This document shows positions 5,246-19,345 of a DNA stretch of 21,275 bases, piece after piece. The translations under genes were made by a program, and so were the position numbers. The stretch is from a virus. Within the stretch, counting starts at the first letter, position 1. The number at the start of each line of letters is the position of its first letter. The notes beneath the pieces were generated by a model. That model saw nothing but the letters and a program-made list of their open reading frames with translations. It did no database searches and was not told the DNA's origin. The stretch covers positions 1 to 21,275 of IMG/VR virus record IMGVR_UViG_3300009285_000324; one strand, 5' to 3'.

Positions 5246-5891
5246 GAAAATAGAAGTGGGAGAGACTTTCCTTGTCGCGGGAGATTGTTCTCAGGGTGGA
5301 AAAGATAGTAATGTTTGTGCTTTCTTAAGTAAGACTAAGCTGGATTACCCTATTGTTTACAAGAAACGTGGAGTTGCGGCAGACATGACAGTGGATATAT
5401 TTCCGGTATTGGAATGGTTGTTTGACACAACGGGGATTGCTCCTATTGTAGCATTTGAAAGAAACAATGGTGGTGGTAGCGAGATGGAGAGACTAAGGGT
5501 TTTGAACAGAAATAACAAGTATCGTATCTATTTAATGAAGAAGTCTGGGCAAACTACGGGAGAGGAAGAGACAAAAGACATGGGTTACAACACAAACACA
5601 GCGACAAGACCTGTATTAGTGGGGGACTGGAAACAAACCTTCGATGCCAAGCTGGTCAAGATATACGATGAGGACGTGATAGATCAGCACATGGCATTTG
5701 TGGTTAATAATATGGGTAAACCAGAGGCGGCAAAGAACAGACACGATGATGCCGTAATAGCCCCCGCAATAGGTTGGCAAATGTATCAAAACTCCAATAG
5801 TATTTCCAACTATGAAAACGAAAACAAACAATCTTACGGGCCTAATTATGAGAGTATCAACCAAGGTTTGGGTAAAAAGTGGAGCATATGA
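5223..5891 (+). CDS. terL: terminase large subunit, nuclease domain
   Basis: The 222-residue frame is the RNase H-fold nuclease half of TerL, which cuts concatemers. FLVAGDCSQGGKDSNVCAF supplies the first acid (D21), IVAFERNNGG the second (E79), and RHDDAVIAPAIGW the third (D175/D176), all in family order. It overlaps the ATPase frame by 23 nt, with no SD before ATG 5223. A +1 shift within the ATT CAG region would read TYAT-FRIYRK straight through. It is either a real two-gene or frameshifted terminase, or an indel in the assembly or genome. The stop overlaps the next ATG. Confidence 0.8.
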   Translation: MQPFRIYRKIEVGETFLVAGDCSQGGKDSNVCAFLSKTKLDYPIVYKKRGVAADMTVDIFPVLEWLFDTTGIAPIVAFERNNGGGSEMERLRVLNRNNKYRIYLMKKSGQTTGEEETKDMGYNTNTATRPVLVGDWKQTFDAKLVKIYDEDVIDQHMAFVVNNMGKPEAAKNRHDDAVIAPAIGWQMYQNSNSISNYENENKQSYGPNYESINQGLGKKWSI

Positions 5892-6193
5892 TTTCAATAC
5901 CAACTGTCCAACAAGATTACGAGTGTTACGATAAACAACTCGAAGTAAATAATGCAAAGGCTGAAGAGTTATTGGGTCAGTTATTCCCGGAACTTAAACT
6001 ACCCAGAGAAGACATATTTAACATTCTTTCATTCTTACAGGAGACCAAGGTTAACGCTCAGATATTACCCAAGGTGATTAGAGGCGTGTATAACTTAACA
6101 ATCGGAACAGGCAAGGGTCAGGTGATAGTCTACGTCAAAGGCGAAACCGTGAATGTACAAACAAGAGAGACGGATGAGGATATACATTTGTAA
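5888..6193 (+). CDS. hypothetical protein, 101 aa
   Basis: The ATG at 5888 overlaps the terminase stop (ATGA); a GTG at 5879 is a less likely start. The 101-residue protein has an acidic helical N-terminal half, then a beta-rich segment (GVYNLTIGTGKGQVIVYVKGETVNVQ). It sits between terminase and portal. No family is recognised, but a conserved small virion or packaging accessory protein would fit the position. It ends just before the first promoter-terminator leader. Confidence 0.6.
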   Translation: MISIPTVQQDYECYDKQLEVNNAKAEELLGQLFPELKLPREDIFNILSFLQETKVNAQILPKVIRGVYNLTIGTGKGQVIVYVKGETVNVQTRETDEDIHL

Positions 6194-11960: not shown

Positions 11961-13715
11961 ATGTCAAAAATTGCCCTAAATATGATTGTAAAGGATGACA
12001 CGGAGGAGGAAATCCTTGTTCGTGCACTTCGGTCAGTCTCCAAATATGTAGACGCAATTTACATTACAGGAACCAAAGAACCCCAGAAAAGAATCAAGAA
12101 AGTTTGCAAGAAGTTTAATGCTCATTGGAGTTGGTTTCCTTGGGTTAAAGACTTCTCCGCTGCCAGAAACTTCGCATTAAATCAAGTGCCCAAAGAATAT
12201 GAGTGGATTTATTGGCAAGACAGTGATGATATTTTGGTTGGGGGAGAAACGTTCAAGGATGCCATCGAACAAGCCGAGAAGAATAATATGAAGGCCATCT
12301 TTGCCCGATACCTCTATCAAGTTGAGTTGGACGAAAAGGGAAATGTCAAACAAGTACTTATAGAACACCTTAGAGAGAGAATAATCCGAAATGATGGCAC
12401 CTATAAGTGGGTAGCTCCTATCCATGAAACACTTATAGAGCAGGTTCCGTCGGGTAAATTCGACTATCCGGGATTTATGGTGGTTCACTTGATTACTCCT
12501 GAAGAAATGCTTGGTTCGATGTATAGAAACATAGAGATATTGGAAGAAGAGGTAATGAAAAATCCCGCAGACCCAAGACCTATTTACTATCTGGCTAAGG
12601 CTTATTTTGACACCGGGGCACAGGAGCTTTTATATGACTCAGCTGGCCCCGGTCTTGAATCCATAACCATTGAGTTGATTAAAGACTATCTAAGGAAATC
12701 TGGTTGGGCCGAAGAAAGAGCTCAGGCGTGGGAATATCTTTCGATGATTTATCGGGAGATGGGAGACTCCAAGAAGGGAATTACCTGTCTCTTGGAAGCG
12801 TTAACCGAGAATCCTCTATTTACTTCGACCTATATTCAACTGGCACTTTTCTATGTAAACCTTAAAGATTGGGCCAAGGCACTTCATTGGGTGAAACTTG
12901 CGGGTAAAGTAGAAATTCCCAAAACAACCCTGGTGGTTAACCCCAGAGATTACAAGTCAATGATACTTGAAGCTTTGTTCCATATCTATCTGAATACGGG
13001 GCAACTTGAATTGTGTCAAAAAGTAGCCCATGGGTTACAGGAGGTCTTGCCAAACGACATAAACAGTTCAAGAGTTGCACAGATTGACGATCTTAAACAC
13101 CGAAACGACATGGCACATTGGACACTCCAGTTGGCAACCCATTTAAGAGATACGGGGCAGAACGAACAGCTTGTTAATCTTATTAACGCTATCCCCAACG
13201 AGATAGCGGGAGAACCTACACTCGTAGACCTGAGAAATGCCTACTTACCACCGAGAAAGTGGAAAGATAACGAAATAATGCTTTACTGCGGTCCGCACTT
13301 TGAACAATGGAGTCCGAAGAACGTAAGTAAAGGAATTGGAGGTTCAGAGGAGGCTGTAATCTATTTGATGAGAGAGATGGCCAAACTAGGTTGGAAAGTT
13401 ACCGTATATGGAGATCCCCGCGAAGACGTGGGAGTGTATGACGGAGTAACTTACCTCCCACACTTCCACATCAACTGGAAAGACGAGTTTAATATCGTTA
13501 TTGCCTGGAGACAGATTCAACTAGTGGATGTTCCGGGACTTAAAGCCAAAAAGATATACCTCTGGAACCACGATCTACAAAACGCAATGACCTACACACC
13601 TGAAAGAGTAGCCAAATTGACTAAGGCAATGTTCCTTTCAAAGTTCCACAGAGACAATGTGCCTGATTTACCAGAAGACAAGGTTATGTTAACGGCCAAC
13701 GGAATAAATATATGA
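11961..13715 (+). CDS. GT2 glycosyltransferase + TPR + N-terminal half of a GT-B domain
   Basis: The 584-residue protein starts with a GT2-type GT-A domain (KIALNMIVKDD at 3-13, nucleotide-sugar DSDD at 87-90, APIHET at 152-157), then a helical TPR-like region (about 185-420), then the N-terminal Rossmann half of a GT4-type GT-B domain. That half shows NEIMLYCGPHFEQWSP (437-452), GIGGSEEAV (458-466), YLWNHDL (533-539) and FLSKFHRDN (558-566), and stops at LTANGINI. The C-terminal sugar-nucleotide half normally following is absent here but present in the protein at 13845. ATG 11961 begins directly after a terminator T run. Confidence 0.8.
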   Translation: MSKIALNMIVKDDTEEEILVRALRSVSKYVDAIYITGTKEPQKRIKKVCKKFNAHWSWFPWVKDFSAARNFALNQVPKEYEWIYWQDSDDILVGGETFKDAIEQAEKNNMKAIFARYLYQVELDEKGNVKQVLIEHLRERIIRNDGTYKWVAPIHETLIEQVPSGKFDYPGFMVVHLITPEEMLGSMYRNIEILEEEVMKNPADPRPIYYLAKAYFDTGAQELLYDSAGPGLESITIELIKDYLRKSGWAEERAQAWEYLSMIYREMGDSKKGITCLLEALTENPLFTSTYIQLALFYVNLKDWAKALHWVKLAGKVEIPKTTLVVNPRDYKSMILEALFHIYLNTGQLELCQKVAHGLQEVLPNDINSSRVAQIDDLKHRNDMAHWTLQLATHLRDTGQNEQLVNLINAIPNEIAGEPTLVDLRNAYLPPRKWKDNEIMLYCGPHFEQWSPKNVSKGIGGSEEAVIYLMREMAKLGWKVTVYGDPREDVGVYDGVTYLPHFHINWKDEFNIVIAWRQIQLVDVPGLKAKKIYLWNHDLQNAMTYTPERVAKLTKAMFLSKFHRDNVPDLPEDKVMLTANGINI

Positions 13716-13855
13716 AGAAGATTAAATTTGGTACATCACCACCGCCACAGTGTAGACATTTTAGGGTTCTGGGGTTGAAATATGTTCCACCCAAAATGGG
13801 AAAGATAAAATGTCCTGATTGCAATACTTTAATTTATATTAACAATGAACGCTAA
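13712..13855 (+). CDS. tiny Cys/His protein between the glycosyltransferase halves
   Basis: An ATG overlapping the preceding stop (ATGA) opens 47 codons. The cysteines are QCRH (C14, H16) and CPDC (C34, C37), enough for one zinc site, and the N-terminus is basic (MKKIKFG). Its last 11 nt overlap the ATG at 13845. It lies exactly where the glycosyltransferase domain is broken, so it may have arrived with the inserted segment. The function is unknown. Confidence 0.55.
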   Translation: MKKIKFGTSPPPQCRHFRVLGLKYVPPKMGKIKCPDCNTLIYINNER

Positions 13856-16454
13856 AGATTTAACATTTTACGGAAACGACAAAGAGGATCAGTTCCTATA
13901 CGAACAATTTAATCTAATGCCCGATAATGGGGTAATGGTTGATGTGGGAGCGGGACCTGATGGTATTCAAGGATCAAACTCATACTTCTTTGAAAAGAAT
14001 GGTTGGAAAGTAATATGTATTGACGCTGATCCTAGAAACGTTCAAGGGTTACAAAAAAACAGGAAGGTGGGTGTGGGTGCATTGGTAACCAACAAAAAAG
14101 GAACACTCAAGTTTTACATGAACCGAAAGACACCTGATATATCGGGAATTATAAAGACCACAGACAATGCCGACTATTCAGCCGAGTTAAAAGGTACAAC
14201 CCTCGAAAAGATATTAGTAGATCATGGTGTGTCAAACATAGACATTCTTTCGATTGATACCGAGGGTAGTGAAATAGATGTGTTTGAGTCTATGGATTTT
14301 GGCAAACACAAGCCGAAACTGCTAATTATTGAAGTTGTAACTCAGGGAAAGTTTAATCCAGAAGTTCAACCTTATTTTGAAGACAGGGGTTATCACATGG
14401 TTGCCGAAGTTGGTGCCAATCAAATATTCGCACTAAAAAAACCCATTGTTAGAAATCCTCATAGAATCATATACGGTTCAAGCTATGACAGAGGGCTGGA
14501 ACACTTACTCAAAATGTGGCCGGACGTTATAAAGGAAGTGCCTGATGCGGAACTCCATATCTTTTACGGGTGGAATTTGTTTGATTTGGGTTATTCAGAC
14601 AACCCAGAACGCATGGCATGGAAAGAAAAGATGAACGGGCTGATGAATCAACCGGGGATAACCCACCTGGGACGCATAAGTCACGACCTGGTTGCGTTAG
14701 AAAACAAAGAAGCGGGAATTTGGGCGTACCCGACGCACTTTGGGGAAATATCTTGCATTACGGCGATGAGAGCACAAGCTTTAGGTGCAGTGCCCGTTGT
14801 AATCGACTACGGAGCGGTACACGAGACCGTACAGCATGGAATTAAAATTCCCGGAGATGTATATGATCCTGAAACCAAGGCTAAATTTAAGGAAGAACTT
14901 ATATCGTTACTTAAAGACATAAAACGCCAGGAAGACATCAGAGAACCGATGGTTAAATGGGCCAAAGAGCATTTCTCTTGGTCTAAGGTGGCAAAAAAAT
15001 GGTCGGATGAATTTAAAAAGGAAGAAACGGTTGAAGAACGTGCCATGAAGTTGATTTTAGCCGATGAACCCCTAGAAGCAGCTCTGCTTTTGAAAGAAGA
15101 CTCTCCTTTAAGACAAAAACTACTTAAAAAATTGGATCACATGACCAATCCCGAAGCCTATGCTAAAAAATATGCAGATGACCCCATGAATTGGAAGCCG
15201 GAAGTAGACGCAGTAGACATGGCAAGGCACGCGTGGATATTAGACGAGGCAAAAGACGCTAAAAACTTAATAGATTTGGGTTGCTATGAAGGAAGTCTGC
15301 TTAAAAGATTCGGAAAAGGGGCAAGGGGTGTTGAGATGTGCAAAGAGGCGGTAAAACTTGGTAATAGCAGAGGACTAAATATGGTTCAGGGTGATGCCTG
15401 TACTTACCAGGATGCCGACAGGTATGATGCTGTTTGTGCTTGTGAGTTGATAGAACACGTAGCCAAACCCAATGACTTGATAGAAAATATGCTTAGGTTA
15501 GTTTCCGATAACGGTTGGTGTTACGTAACAACTCCCAACGGACCCGTTGATCCCAAAGGTACTTTCAAGACATGGATCGATGAGGACGCTTTAATAGATC
15601 ATGTCAGAGCCTACAATAAATCAAAAGTTGAAAAACAACTCAGGGGCTTAGAGTATGAGATATTTGAACACGGCAAAGAGTTGTGGTTTAAATTCAGGAC
15701 TAATTTAGACAAGCACGTTGAGGCACTTCTTGAAGATAATCAGGCACTAAAAGCATGGGAGTTAGTCAAAGACACCAATTCACCACTAAAGGAGAAGTTG
15801 TGGCCAAGAGTCAAACACGCTTTTAATAAAAAAGATTATGTTAAATACTATTCAGAGGACTTAGTTGAAACTCCGATACCAGAAGAACTTTGTACCGAAG
15901 CAGATAGAATGTACCCACGTATAGGTTGGCTTATTAAGAGGATTGAAGAACAAAAAGCTAGAACTGTAATAGATTTAGGGTGTGCGGATGGGTATGTTTG
16001 TTTGACTCTAGCAAAAAGGGGAGTTTTTCAATGTATGGGGGTTAATCTCTATAAACCATCCGTAGATATAGCAGAAGAGCGTGGAATGAAATATAGATTG
16101 AATACAAAGTTTAAGTGCATGGATTTATTTGATGTAGAGAATAAAGCTGATGCAGTTGTACTATTTGAAGTCCTTGAACACCTACCCGATGCGAAGAAAG
16201 CAATAGATCATTGTATGTCCTTGGTAAACAAAAGGGGAAGATTCTATCTATCAACCCCATCCCCTGATCATCTGGGAATAATACTTCACAAAGAAGAGGG
16301 GCACGGGACAGACTGGACAGACACCAAACCGTCGGGACACCTAAGAATCTATACGGAGTCCGAACTCAGAGAATTATTAAAAGACTACAAGATAGAAAGG
16401 TTTGAGATTGATGAGCAAGGGTGTTATTTAATGGAGGTGAGTCACGTTGTATAA
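13845..16454 (+). CDS. FkbM methyltransferase + C-terminal half GT-B + two methyltransferase domains
   Basis: An 869-residue multidomain protein. Residues 1-200 are an FkbM-type SAM methyltransferase (MVDVGAGPDGIQGSNSYFF at 31-49, ICIDADPRN at 57-65, SIDTEGSEIDVFESMDF at 136-152). Residues 204-391 are the C-terminal half of a GT4-like GT-B domain (HRIIYGSSYDRGLEHLL, PTHFGEISCITAMRAQALG). Residues 404-620 and 626-869 are two class I methyltransferases (LIDLGCYEGSLL with CELIEH; VIDLGCADGYVC with FEVLEHLP), each preceded by a related helical linker. Likely substrates are glycans being built by neighbouring glycosyltransferases. The GT EX7E second acid is Arg (R309). Confidence 0.8.
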   Translation: MNAKDLTFYGNDKEDQFLYEQFNLMPDNGVMVDVGAGPDGIQGSNSYFFEKNGWKVICIDADPRNVQGLQKNRKVGVGALVTNKKGTLKFYMNRKTPDISGIIKTTDNADYSAELKGTTLEKILVDHGVSNIDILSIDTEGSEIDVFESMDFGKHKPKLLIIEVVTQGKFNPEVQPYFEDRGYHMVAEVGANQIFALKKPIVRNPHRIIYGSSYDRGLEHLLKMWPDVIKEVPDAELHIFYGWNLFDLGYSDNPERMAWKEKMNGLMNQPGITHLGRISHDLVALENKEAGIWAYPTHFGEISCITAMRAQALGAVPVVIDYGAVHETVQHGIKIPGDVYDPETKAKFKEELISLLKDIKRQEDIREPMVKWAKEHFSWSKVAKKWSDEFKKEETVEERAMKLILADEPLEAALLLKEDSPLRQKLLKKLDHMTNPEAYAKKYADDPMNWKPEVDAVDMARHAWILDEAKDAKNLIDLGCYEGSLLKRFGKGARGVEMCKEAVKLGNSRGLNMVQGDACTYQDADRYDAVCACELIEHVAKPNDLIENMLRLVSDNGWCYVTTPNGPVDPKGTFKTWIDEDALIDHVRAYNKSKVEKQLRGLEYEIFEHGKELWFKFRTNLDKHVEALLEDNQALKAWELVKDTNSPLKEKLWPRVKHAFNKKDYVKYYSEDLVETPIPEELCTEADRMYPRIGWLIKRIEEQKARTVIDLGCADGYVCLTLAKRGVFQCMGVNLYKPSVDIAEERGMKYRLNTKFKCMDLFDVENKADAVVLFEVLEHLPDAKKAIDHCMSLVNKRGRFYLSTPSPDHLGIILHKEEGHGTDWTDTKPSGHLRIYTESELRELLKDYKIERFEIDEQGCYLMEVSHVV

Positions 16455-16593
16455 AAATAAATGTGGAACTTGTGGTAAAGAGATGATGTCATTTGCTAAA
16501 GACAAACAGGGGACATTACCGGTAGTTTACTGTAGCAAAGCGTGTGAGGTTAATGCTAAGTACGAAAAGAGGTTTGATAAAAGATTCAAATGA
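16447..16593 (+). CDS. tiny FCS-like zinc-finger protein, TTG start
   Basis: A TTG at 16447, overlapping the previous stop, is preceded by GGAGGTGA (16433-16440) at 6-nt spacing, one of the best SDs in the window. This supports the unusual start. The 48 residues carry CGTCG (C6, C9) and YCSKAC (C29, C33), then a basic tail (AKYEKRFDKRFK). The layout matches the protein at 3123 (CQHCG then YCTRTC), so the two may be related zinc fingers in different modules. The stop overlaps the next ATG. Confidence 0.6.
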   Translation: MYKNKCGTCGKEMMSFAKDKQGTLPVVYCSKACEVNAKYEKRFDKRFK

Positions 16594-17399
16594 AAATCGC
16601 TGTTATTTGGTACTTCGGCAAGGCCAGTCAAGTTTATGATAACTGGCGCGATGGTTTGCGTGCTGCAATAGAGATTCTGGGTAAAAAACACCAAATAAGT
16701 TGGTTTTTGGATAAAAACGTACCAACCCCTGAAGATAAATACGACTTCTACTTGGTTTGGGATGACTCTAATACAGAATCTACCAAGTTTTTGCCAAAAG
16801 ATGCCAAAAAAGGGCTCTGTCTGACAACCGATCCGACCAACTTTGATAATCTAAGAAAATTTGATGTAGTCTACTGCGAAAGTGAACCCGTCTATGACCA
16901 AGTCAGACGTGAGGGTATACGGGCAATAAGGGCATTCGGCACAGACACAGACTTTTTTACTCCCCAAAAGGTAGAGAAAGATATCGAGTATTTTTATCCG
17001 GCCACTTTTTCGCCGTGGAAACTTCAACGGGACATTGCTTATCTAGGAAAGAAGATCCTGTGTGTGGGAACTTTCCAACCGGATGGTTTTGAAGACTACG
17101 ACAAATGTGTTAAAGAGGGTGTCCAGATTAAACTGGGGTATTTTCCTCCGCAGGTAATTAGAGATTATTACAGTAGGGCCAAAAAAGTGATTGTTCCCGC
17201 CATCCACGGCTCGGAGCGTACAGTTTTAGAGGCAATGAGTATGAATATCCTACCGGAAGTAACTAATTTAAGGAATGTACGTACCAAATCTTACATTTAC
17301 GAGTTCAAGAGATCTGATTGTGTTACACCCAGAGAGTTTGTTATTAAAAACTATTCGGCATGGCAATACGCAGCAGATCTGGAAAGGGGTATGGAATGA
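16590..17399 (+). CDS. GT-B glycosyltransferase-like protein (GT4-like)
   Basis: ATG 16590 overlaps the preceding stop. The 269-residue protein opens with a beta-strand (MKIAVIWYFG) and an N-terminal domain with the acceptor-side FYLVWDD (53-59). It then has KKILCVGTFQPDGF (154-167), the start of the donor Rossmann half, and RAKKVIVPAIHGSERTVLEA (196-215), which resembles the GT4 donor loop where SERT replaces the usual E-rich motif. It is short for GT4 proteins, so it is a compact or divergent member. A glycan-building role is inferred from the island. Confidence 0.65.
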   Translation: MKIAVIWYFGKASQVYDNWRDGLRAAIEILGKKHQISWFLDKNVPTPEDKYDFYLVWDDSNTESTKFLPKDAKKGLCLTTDPTNFDNLRKFDVVYCESEPVYDQVRREGIRAIRAFGTDTDFFTPQKVEKDIEYFYPATFSPWKLQRDIAYLGKKILCVGTFQPDGFEDYDKCVKEGVQIKLGYFPPQVIRDYYSRAKKVIVPAIHGSERTVLEAMSMNILPEVTNLRNVRTKSYIYEFKRSDCVTPREFVIKNYSAWQYAADLERGME

Positions 17400-18091
17400 G
17401 GGTTATAATGCCTTGTTGGCTTAGAGATTCTGACCTCGTAGACCTAACCGAAAATGCTATCAAATCTTTACGTGAGAACGATGTTGAAATTACTATTATT
17501 GATAATGCTTCTCCTATTGGTGGCGGTGCTCTCCGAGAATGGGCTGATGAGTACGTCAGGAATCCGATAAATTTGGGTTACGCCAAGGCGGTCAATCAGG
17601 GTTTGAAACTTCATATAGGGGAGGTTGTGGCCGTGGCGAATAACGATATTAGAGTCAGTAAGAATTGGCTTTCCGTGTCGGAAGACATAATGAAAGATCC
17701 AGAAGTTTGTTCGGTACACTTCAGAATGGTCCTATACGATCAACCATGGAATCCGAGTAATGAAACATTTATCGGAGGCAAAGAGAGGTGGTGTTCGTCG
17801 TCGTTCTTCGTTGTGAGAGGCGATAGATTGTACGACGAGCACTACCTCAATAGTTATGACGATTGGGATATGTGGAAATGGTGGAGATCGCAGGGATTAA
17901 AACAGGCTTATACAAACAAGGCCGAATATCAACACCTAGATTCATCAACCGTTAACAGAATGGAAAAACACGAAATTGCCAACGTGGAGAACAGGGAATA
18001 CTTCAAAGAGAAGTGGGGCAAGTATCCGGAGGAAGACTTTGCTGAAGAATTTGGAGAACAACTAAAAACCCCGTGGAAACCTTTTCCTTGA
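17396..18091 (+). CDS. GT2-family glycosyltransferase
   Basis: ATG 17396 (ATGA overlap, AAAGGGG at 17383-17389) gives 231 residues; the longer frame from 17360 is rejected because its extra residues only re-read the previous gene. GT-A features are clear: ITIIDNASP (32-40), NLGYAKAVNQG (59-69), the DXD-equivalent NND in VANNDI (80-85), and SSSFFVVRGDRL (134-145) before the DDWDMW acid cluster (155-160). It resembles rhamnosyl- or galactofuranosyl-type GT2 enzymes and transfers a sugar from a nucleotide donor to a growing glycan. Confidence 0.8.
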   Translation: MRVIMPCWLRDSDLVDLTENAIKSLRENDVEITIIDNASPIGGGALREWADEYVRNPINLGYAKAVNQGLKLHIGEVVAVANNDIRVSKNWLSVSEDIMKDPEVCSVHFRMVLYDQPWNPSNETFIGGKERWCSSSFFVVRGDRLYDEHYLNSYDDWDMWKWWRSQGLKQAYTNKAEYQHLDSSTVNRMEKHEIANVENREYFKEKWGKYPEEDFAEEFGEQLKTPWKPFP

Positions 18092-18092
18092 T

Positions 18093-18608
18093 ATGCTCAG
18101 TACAACGATAGACTTTGTAAAAAAGTTTAAAAAAGAACACCCCTTCTTGGGTAGGGTTTTGGACGTTGGTTCATTAGACATAAACGGAAACTTAAGAGGA
18201 GAGTTTGAGGAATTTGACTATATCGGTATAGATATGCGCCCCGGAAAAAACGTAGACATAGACATCAACGGGCACGACTTAAAAGAAACATTTAAAAAGG
18301 GAGAGTTTGATATAGTGATGTGTTTTGACACACTTGAACATGATATCCAGTTTTGGTTGACGGTTGAAAACATGAAGTGGGTACTTAAAAAGGGCGGATG
18401 GTTACTCGTGGGCGCTCCATCAATCAACCATCCTAGACACAATCACCCCTACGATTATTATAGATTTACAAGAGATTCTTTTTCACAATACATCTTTGGA
18501 GACATGACGAACGTTTTTATTAGAGAGGATTATTACAACGTACCCGAAAACTCAGATTACAACGAAGACAAACCCGATCAAGTATTTGGATGGGGACAGA
18601 AACAATGA
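18093..18608 (+). CDS. class I SAM-dependent methyltransferase
   Basis: The start is 1 nt after the previous stop. The 171-residue protein shows motif I VLDVGSLDING (22-32), an acid after the second strand (YIGIDMRPG, 43-51), DIVMCFDTLEHD (73-84) and WLLVGAPS (103-110), then HNHPYDYYRFT (116-126). This pattern matches small Methyltransf_11/23-type proteins in glycan clusters, where they O-methylate sugars or act on carrier-linked intermediates. The substrate is unknown. The stop overlaps the next start. Confidence 0.75.
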   Translation: MLSTTIDFVKKFKKEHPFLGRVLDVGSLDINGNLRGEFEEFDYIGIDMRPGKNVDIDINGHDLKETFKKGEFDIVMCFDTLEHDIQFWLTVENMKWVLKKGGWLLVGAPSINHPRHNHPYDYYRFTRDSFSQYIFGDMTNVFIREDYYNVPENSDYNEDKPDQVFGWGQKQ

Positions 18609-19345
18609 TTTCAATAATTACACCAACAACCAGGCCTGAGCTTCTCCCGATTATCGAAAAATGCCTTAAAAGGCAGGATTTTACCGACTGGGAATGGATA
18701 ATCGTGTCTCCCAAAGAAATAGACACAGTTAAACCAACGCTTCTACTCAAAGACCCTCCTAAACAACCTAATGACTTCTGGACACTCTGCAAGGGGTGGA
18801 ATAAAGCCTATGCTCACGCTAAAGGAGGTTTGGTCGTGAATATTCAGGACGGGATTTGGTTTCCGCCTGATATACTCTCAAAATTCTGGTTTCACTATCA
18901 AAACCAGCCTCGGATTTTAGTGTCTGCAATAGGACACCAATATGGGGGCTTTGATGATATGGGTAAGCCCGTCAACGAGGTTTGGCACGATCCCCGGTCA
19001 AGAACAGACGTAAGCTTTCAGGAAGTTCCCCCAAGTGAGATGGAGATGGTGATGTGTTCTATTCCTAGACAGGCAATACTTGAGTGTGGTGGAATAGACG
19101 AGATTTATGATACCTGTAACGGGGCACAGGAAAAAGAGATGTGTTGGAGGCTAAATAAGTTGAATTGGGACTTTTACATAGACCACACGATTGAATACCG
19201 CGCCATTCACCACCCCAGACTTACGGAAAATTGGGACAAGGTGTATACGGAAAAAACCACTCCTTTATTTGTTAAACACATGACCGAGTTAGACAACGAA
19301 ACAAGAACCTTAAATGTCGATAGTATTAAGAAGTACATGATATAA
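18605..19345 (+). CDS. GT2-like glycosyltransferase, divergent DXD
   Basis: ATG 18605 overlaps the methyltransferase stop; an in-frame ATG at 18590 is less likely. Residues 1-10 (MISIITPTTR) are the GT2 opening strand. QDFTDWEWIIVSP (24-36) and NKAYAHAKGGLVVNIQDGIW (66-85) follow, with QDG where the DXD normally sits, and GGIDEIYD (162-169) plus GAQEKEMCWRL (173-183) as the catalytic-acid region. It is a 246-residue GT-A protein, probably active but with an unusual metal-binding motif. Its stop codon lies inside the -10 element of leader C. Confidence 0.7.
   Translation: MISIITPTTRPELLPIIEKCLKRQDFTDWEWIIVSPKEIDTVKPTLLLKDPPKQPNDFWTLCKGWNKAYAHAKGGLVVNIQDGIWFPPDILSKFWFHYQNQPRILVSAIGHQYGGFDDMGKPVNEVWHDPRSRTDVSFQEVPPSEMEMVMCSIPRQAILECGGIDEIYDTCNGAQEKEMCWRLNKLNWDFYIDHTIEYRAIHHPRLTENWDKVYTEKTTPLFVKHMTELDNETRTLNVDSIKKYMI

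Follow-up and report, generated by a model that had tools for sequence, protein, structure and literature searches.

P0001 and P0003, two genes of a 21.3 kb virus record that was analysed as a whole (hereafter the window), very probably encode the two halves of one GT4-like glycosyltransferase with a GT-B fold. The halves would be separate, coupled polypeptides that assemble non-covalently, and the gene would have been split before other sequence, here called cargo, entered between them. The preliminary description of this DNA had considered a functional split enzyme possible, and at the sequence level both conservation and recurrence strongly support this. The window runs from terminase-like, portal/adaptor-like and SU10-type major capsid genes into a block of glycan genes, flanked by the capsid genes and other structural genes, a placement that points to late expression. 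Other glycan genes, at 16590-19345, encode GT2-type proteins, a small methyltransferase and a 269-aa protein, the latter without significant Pfam match.

Table 1. Features of the split glycosyltransferase locus (window coordinates).
Feature	Position	Strand	Description and evidence
P0001	11961..13715	+	584 aa: GT2-like domain, TPR and GT4 N-half
GT4 N-terminal Rossmann half, ending NGINI	13230..13712	+	AlphaFold2 pLDDT 93.7, pTM 0.88
ATGA stop/start overlap, N-half to tiny ORF	13712..13715	+	sequence
Tiny ORF	13712..13848	+	45 aa, CxH/CxxC pattern (CxH...CPDC), possible zinc ribbon; translation
Second ATGA overlap, tiny ORF to P0003	13845..13848	+	sequence
P0003	13845..16454	+	869 aa: FkbM, GT4 C-half and two methyltransferases; Pfam, blastp domain map
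FkbM methyltransferase domain	13941..14396	+	residues 33-184 of P0003; PF05050 E 4.2e-13; cargo fused ahead of C-half
GTT-AGA-AAT (V-R-N)	14448..14456	+	free C-halves of L005, L008, L010, L015 and L016 start ATG-AGA-AAT/AAC (M-R-N)
GT4 C-terminal (nucleotide-sugar) half	14451..15014	+	C-half HMM 2-189/189 E 1e-86; PF00534 E 2.5e-9
Methyltransferase 1, MetW/Methyltransf_23-like	15051..15644	+	Pfam, blastp
Methyltransferase 2	15687..16439	+	blastp

Two half-domains and their fused relatives

P0001 begins with a region (residues 3-377) matching phrog_13126, a beta-1,4-glycosyltransferase (E 1.3e-30), and ends in VMLTANGINI followed directly by TGA. Its last ~160 residues cover the entire GT4 N-half profile, an HMM built from related sequences (1-158/158, E 6e-66). 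The preliminary description had taken LTANGINI as the end of a Rossmann half and had named a C-terminus without such a half as an outcome that would overturn the idea; the AlphaFold model of this region is a Rossmann fold. In a PDB fold search its best matches were PimA, BshA and other GT-B enzymes, the half alone giving a marginal best E of 2e-3.

The complementary half was correctly placed from residue 204 of P0003, N204 of the motif NPHRIIY lying at 14454, and Pfam matches residues 215-367 to Glycos_transf_1. FkbM precedes it in the same reading frame, so that a methyltransferase is indeed fused to the donor half. Of the intervening "tiny zinc ORF and FkbM", the FkbM assignment stands, while the zinc nature of the ORF, which overlaps both neighbours by ATGA, is suggested by its Cys/His pattern, all zinc-ribbon matches in Pfam falling below cut-off. 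The two methyltransferase domains downstream of the C-half in the same ORF had previously gone unmentioned. Homologues of the second one (blastp, 44-59% identity) form the C-terminal domain of the C-half ORF in L005, L008, L010 and L246, and the stand-alone methyltransferase between the halves of L018 is also homologous to it. No close relatives of the whole of P0003 or of its FkbM part were found among the viral contigs searched.

What is divided over two polypeptides in the window is a single protein in its relatives. Loci L011-L014, 57-61% identical, encode both halves in one ORF with a linker of ~13 residues after NGI. Since these fused relatives join exactly the P0001 end and the start of the P0003 C-half, the matching ends cannot be attributed to chance. 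We collected 170 distinct phage loci, 124 fused and 46 split, from the best 80 loci of each search, and these fractions are not population frequencies. GenBank genome MW202524 also has both halves in one ORF. Among the bacterial matches listed, 16 of 17 distinct loci are fused (cyanobacteria, Gottesmanbacteria, Taylorbacteria, Rhodothermales, Granulicella); only L167 is not, a locus that looks degenerate and lacks a cut at NGI. A polypeptide in which NGI runs straight into the C-half, proposed beforehand as the homologue to look for, thus exists in bacterial genomes as well as in 124 distinct phage loci. A fused relative at 57-61% identity was modelled as a complete GT-B enzyme (pLDDT 96.3, pTM 0.92) with two facing Rossmann domains, the window's N-half having been modelled itself, and this model matches PimA, BshA and sucrose-phosphate synthase (Foldseek E 1e-13 to 1e-12).

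Position, cargo and history of the split

All 46 split phage loci among the matches listed are cut 0-13 residues past the NG(I/V/L) motif, which is the domain crossover, and none of the phage loci listed is split elsewhere in the GT4 domain, in-frame intein-like inserts aside. A single clade of all splits was rejected (AU p 2.7e-5). The fused or split label changes nine times on the tree, eight of these being forced by well-supported branches, and the changes may be a mixture of fissions and re-fusions. Whole clades have kept the split; L025, which bears HNH, is the single split member of an otherwise fused clade. For the wider clade of 24 members that includes the window, a single split origin was not rejected (AU p 0.335), and either several splits or one followed by re-fusions may apply. 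Six fused loci with an unusual linker, NG(F/Y/L).EH, are placed among split members and are possible re-fusions (L019, L020, L098, L102, L176 and L151); L151 sits in a Gottesmanbacteria contig.

Among the matches listed, the C-half lies within 50 nt of the N-half in 15 of the 46 split loci, most of which, the closest relatives included, join them by ATGA, and other sequence, including tiny ORFs, intervenes in the remaining 31. The N-half stop forms an ATGA in 29 of the 46 (ATGA or GTGA in 31). Cargo comprises HNH endonucleases (L006, L025, L100, L111, L253), methyltransferases (L018, L089, L126, the window and, by a weak Dam match, L105) and GroEL, the last in eight distinct IMG/VR loci and in MW202497 among the matches listed. 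One clade has a phage GroEL (Cpn60) gene between the halves in all its members, the N-half there ending NGI..EQF; junctions of this type were seen in L004 (5640-7208), L063, L069, L083, L131, L136, L137, L139 and L140. By Pfam, the window junction contains no homing endonuclease gene, its contents being the Zn-like ORF and FkbM.

Some members carry intein-like in-frame inserts within the C-half, at the conserved EI(S/N)C motif (L024:6820-7870, L042:6805-7860, L134:502-1420, L259:7280-8030). Where read through, these begin with Cys and end in VHN before Cys; their middle part appears by eye long and LAGLIDADG-like in two and HNH-like in two. L259 is split and intein-bearing at once, and the phage of L024 has a group I intron (RF00028, 54.4 bits) at 2290-2494, upstream of the glycosyltransferase.

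The window belongs to a clade of seven members, all split (99% SH-aLRT), with the fused pair L011/L170 as neighbour. Four of its six split relatives (L005, L008, L010, L246) have no insert, and GTT-AGA-AAT stands in the window where free C-halves start ATG-AGA-AAT/C. This V-R-N is probably the relic of a lost start codon, as expected if that codon disappeared upon fusion to FkbM, and together these two observations argue that in this lineage the split is probably older than the cargo. FkbM appears to have entered the junction of an already split gene and fused with a free-standing C-half gene; an insertion of about 740 bp into an intact gene, as initially envisaged, is probably not what happened. 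The same order of events is seen in L100, whose HNH/NUMOD3 ORF (5396-6001) ends in a remnant of the old N-half end (KWHRDNVSKLPEEKVFITSNGL) followed by ATGA and the C-half. The L100 N-half gene bears a complete, divergent replacement end, so the integrity of the N-half was kept. The similarity exists at the protein level only, no long DNA repeat being present around the HNH gene, and a DNA-level duplication was therefore rejected.

Proposed mechanism and alternative readings

We propose that a GT-B gene was divided at the crossover from N- to C-terminal domain, that two genes linked through ATGA overlaps, and probably translationally coupled, now yield its halves as individual polypeptides, and that the junction between the two genes later took up cargo. 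Non-covalent assembly is the most likely mechanism by analogy with Alg13/Alg14 and the NrdA of phage Aeh1. In GT-B folds a helix at the C-terminus normally returns to pack against the N-half; here the C-half would supply this helix along with the nucleotide-sugar site, while the N-half protein would contribute the acceptor side, the GT2-like domain and a TPR arm, and a further three domains, all methyltransferases, would come with the C-half protein. Acting late in infection, the unit probably assembles a glycan and adds methyl groups to it, with the virion or the host surface as its location.

Instead, the GT4 domain could be decaying, its halves being leftovers beside a GT2-TPR part and methyltransferases that still work. 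Mobile HNH genes in several junctions fit such decay, and one split clade may stem from a single accident. Both split halves, however, keep the same invariant residues as fused proteins (GGSE, WR, HD and NG; S..DRG, YG and the E of EI.C), and purifying selection acts in both groups (dN/dS 0.06-0.15 in split pairs, 0.08-0.22 in fused pairs). Where dS can be measured, both halves give a dN/dS of about 0.1, dS being near saturation in many pairs, and this already weakens the case for decay. Moreover, splits last across clades without any seen inside a half, and the C-half has been retained and further fused to new domains, so we consider decay quite improbable. It also seems unlikely that the halves work separately, with the C-half no longer pairing with P0001 and serving methyltransferases on its own as a scaffold or donor-binding domain. 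Its fusion to methyltransferases in the window clade would suit this, as would its distance from the N-half, up to 2 kb in some loci outside that clade, but wherever a junction is readable the halves remain linked, in an unchanged order. GT-B catalysis requires both domains, and GGSE, WR and HD of the N-half remain invariant. In favour of the split-enzyme reading, the N-half distances of split pairs track those of their C-halves (r 0.87), a correlation that shared phage ancestry also predicts.

A single polypeptide could be restored if the halves were rejoined by an intron, an intein or recoding, mechanisms brought to mind by the intein-like C-half inserts and the group I intron of the family and by the short junction of some relatives. 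We give this very little credence: Rfam found no intron at any split junction tested, nor at the window junction at E up to 1; no intein sequence lies at the junction; FkbM is in frame with the C-half; and three in-frame stops between the halves, besides the TGA of P0001, rule out simple read-through. An assembly or sequencing artefact has a negligible probability. Most sequences are metagenomic contigs, and the stop codon of the split is precisely where that of L001 ends, but this reading is refuted because the split recurs: contigs from many samples carry it, two or three metagenomes yielded matching copies (L008/L009, L089-L091), and it is present in the circular GenBank phage genome MW202497.

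If the halves are coupled through ATGA and still assemble, the GT-B crossover could be a reusable slot whose joint gains and loses endonucleases, methyltransferases, chaperonins and tiny ORFs at no cost to glycosyltransferase function, and through which phages diversify their glycan machinery, re-fusion included; this seems possible to us, though we lean slightly against it. The family offers a natural series of one enzyme, fused, split, cargo-bearing and possibly re-fused, which allows direct tests of how a two-domain GT-B enzyme survives cutting and of whether mobile genes drive or merely exploit the cuts. It also holds a warning for annotation, as phage halves get called unrelated partial glycosyltransferases, as in MW202497.

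Comparison with known systems

PimA, BshA and sucrose-phosphate synthase, GT4 enzymes with the same fold as the fused relative, are single polypeptides with an E-x7-E motif. In the phage family, by contrast, the first Glu is invariant and the second is Arg or Lys in 34 of 38 split and 62 of 76 fused members. With E-x7-K/R in most members, the enzyme is termed GT4-like rather than a canonical retaining GT4, and its chemistry should not be taken as standard; it may be different. No report of a split phage glycosyltransferase was found in the non-subscription literature searched.

Alg13/Alg14 and bacterial EpsE/EpsF-type proteins are split GT-B N-acetylglucosaminyltransferases whose domains are separate proteins that must pair; for Alg13/Alg14, a split followed by re-fusions has been proposed, and the C-half pairs through its C-terminal helix (PMC8993221). 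The phage enzyme likewise has its N- and C-terminal GT-B domains on separate proteins, which would pair in the same manner. However, Alg13/Alg14 are related to GT1/GT28, whereas the window protein matches GT4-type folds and Pfam models (Glycos_transf_1 and, weakly, Glyco_transf_4), and in the phage family there are several distinct groups of split members, with cargo at the junction and additional enzymatic domains.

Phage genes in pieces have also arisen by homing endonuclease insertion, as in nrdA/mobE of Aeh1, gene 60/mobA of T4 and 43A/43B of an Aeromonas phage; the split nrdA and gene 43 polypeptides reassemble to activity, and a UAAUGA overlap was described for mobE (PMC2988022). Split phage enzyme genes and HNH genes in the junction are common to both cases. 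Unlike those, the gene described here encodes a glycosyltransferase and its cut coincides precisely with the domain crossover, an endonuclease is absent from many split members, the window among them, and the junctions hold other cargo including methyltransferases and GroEL.
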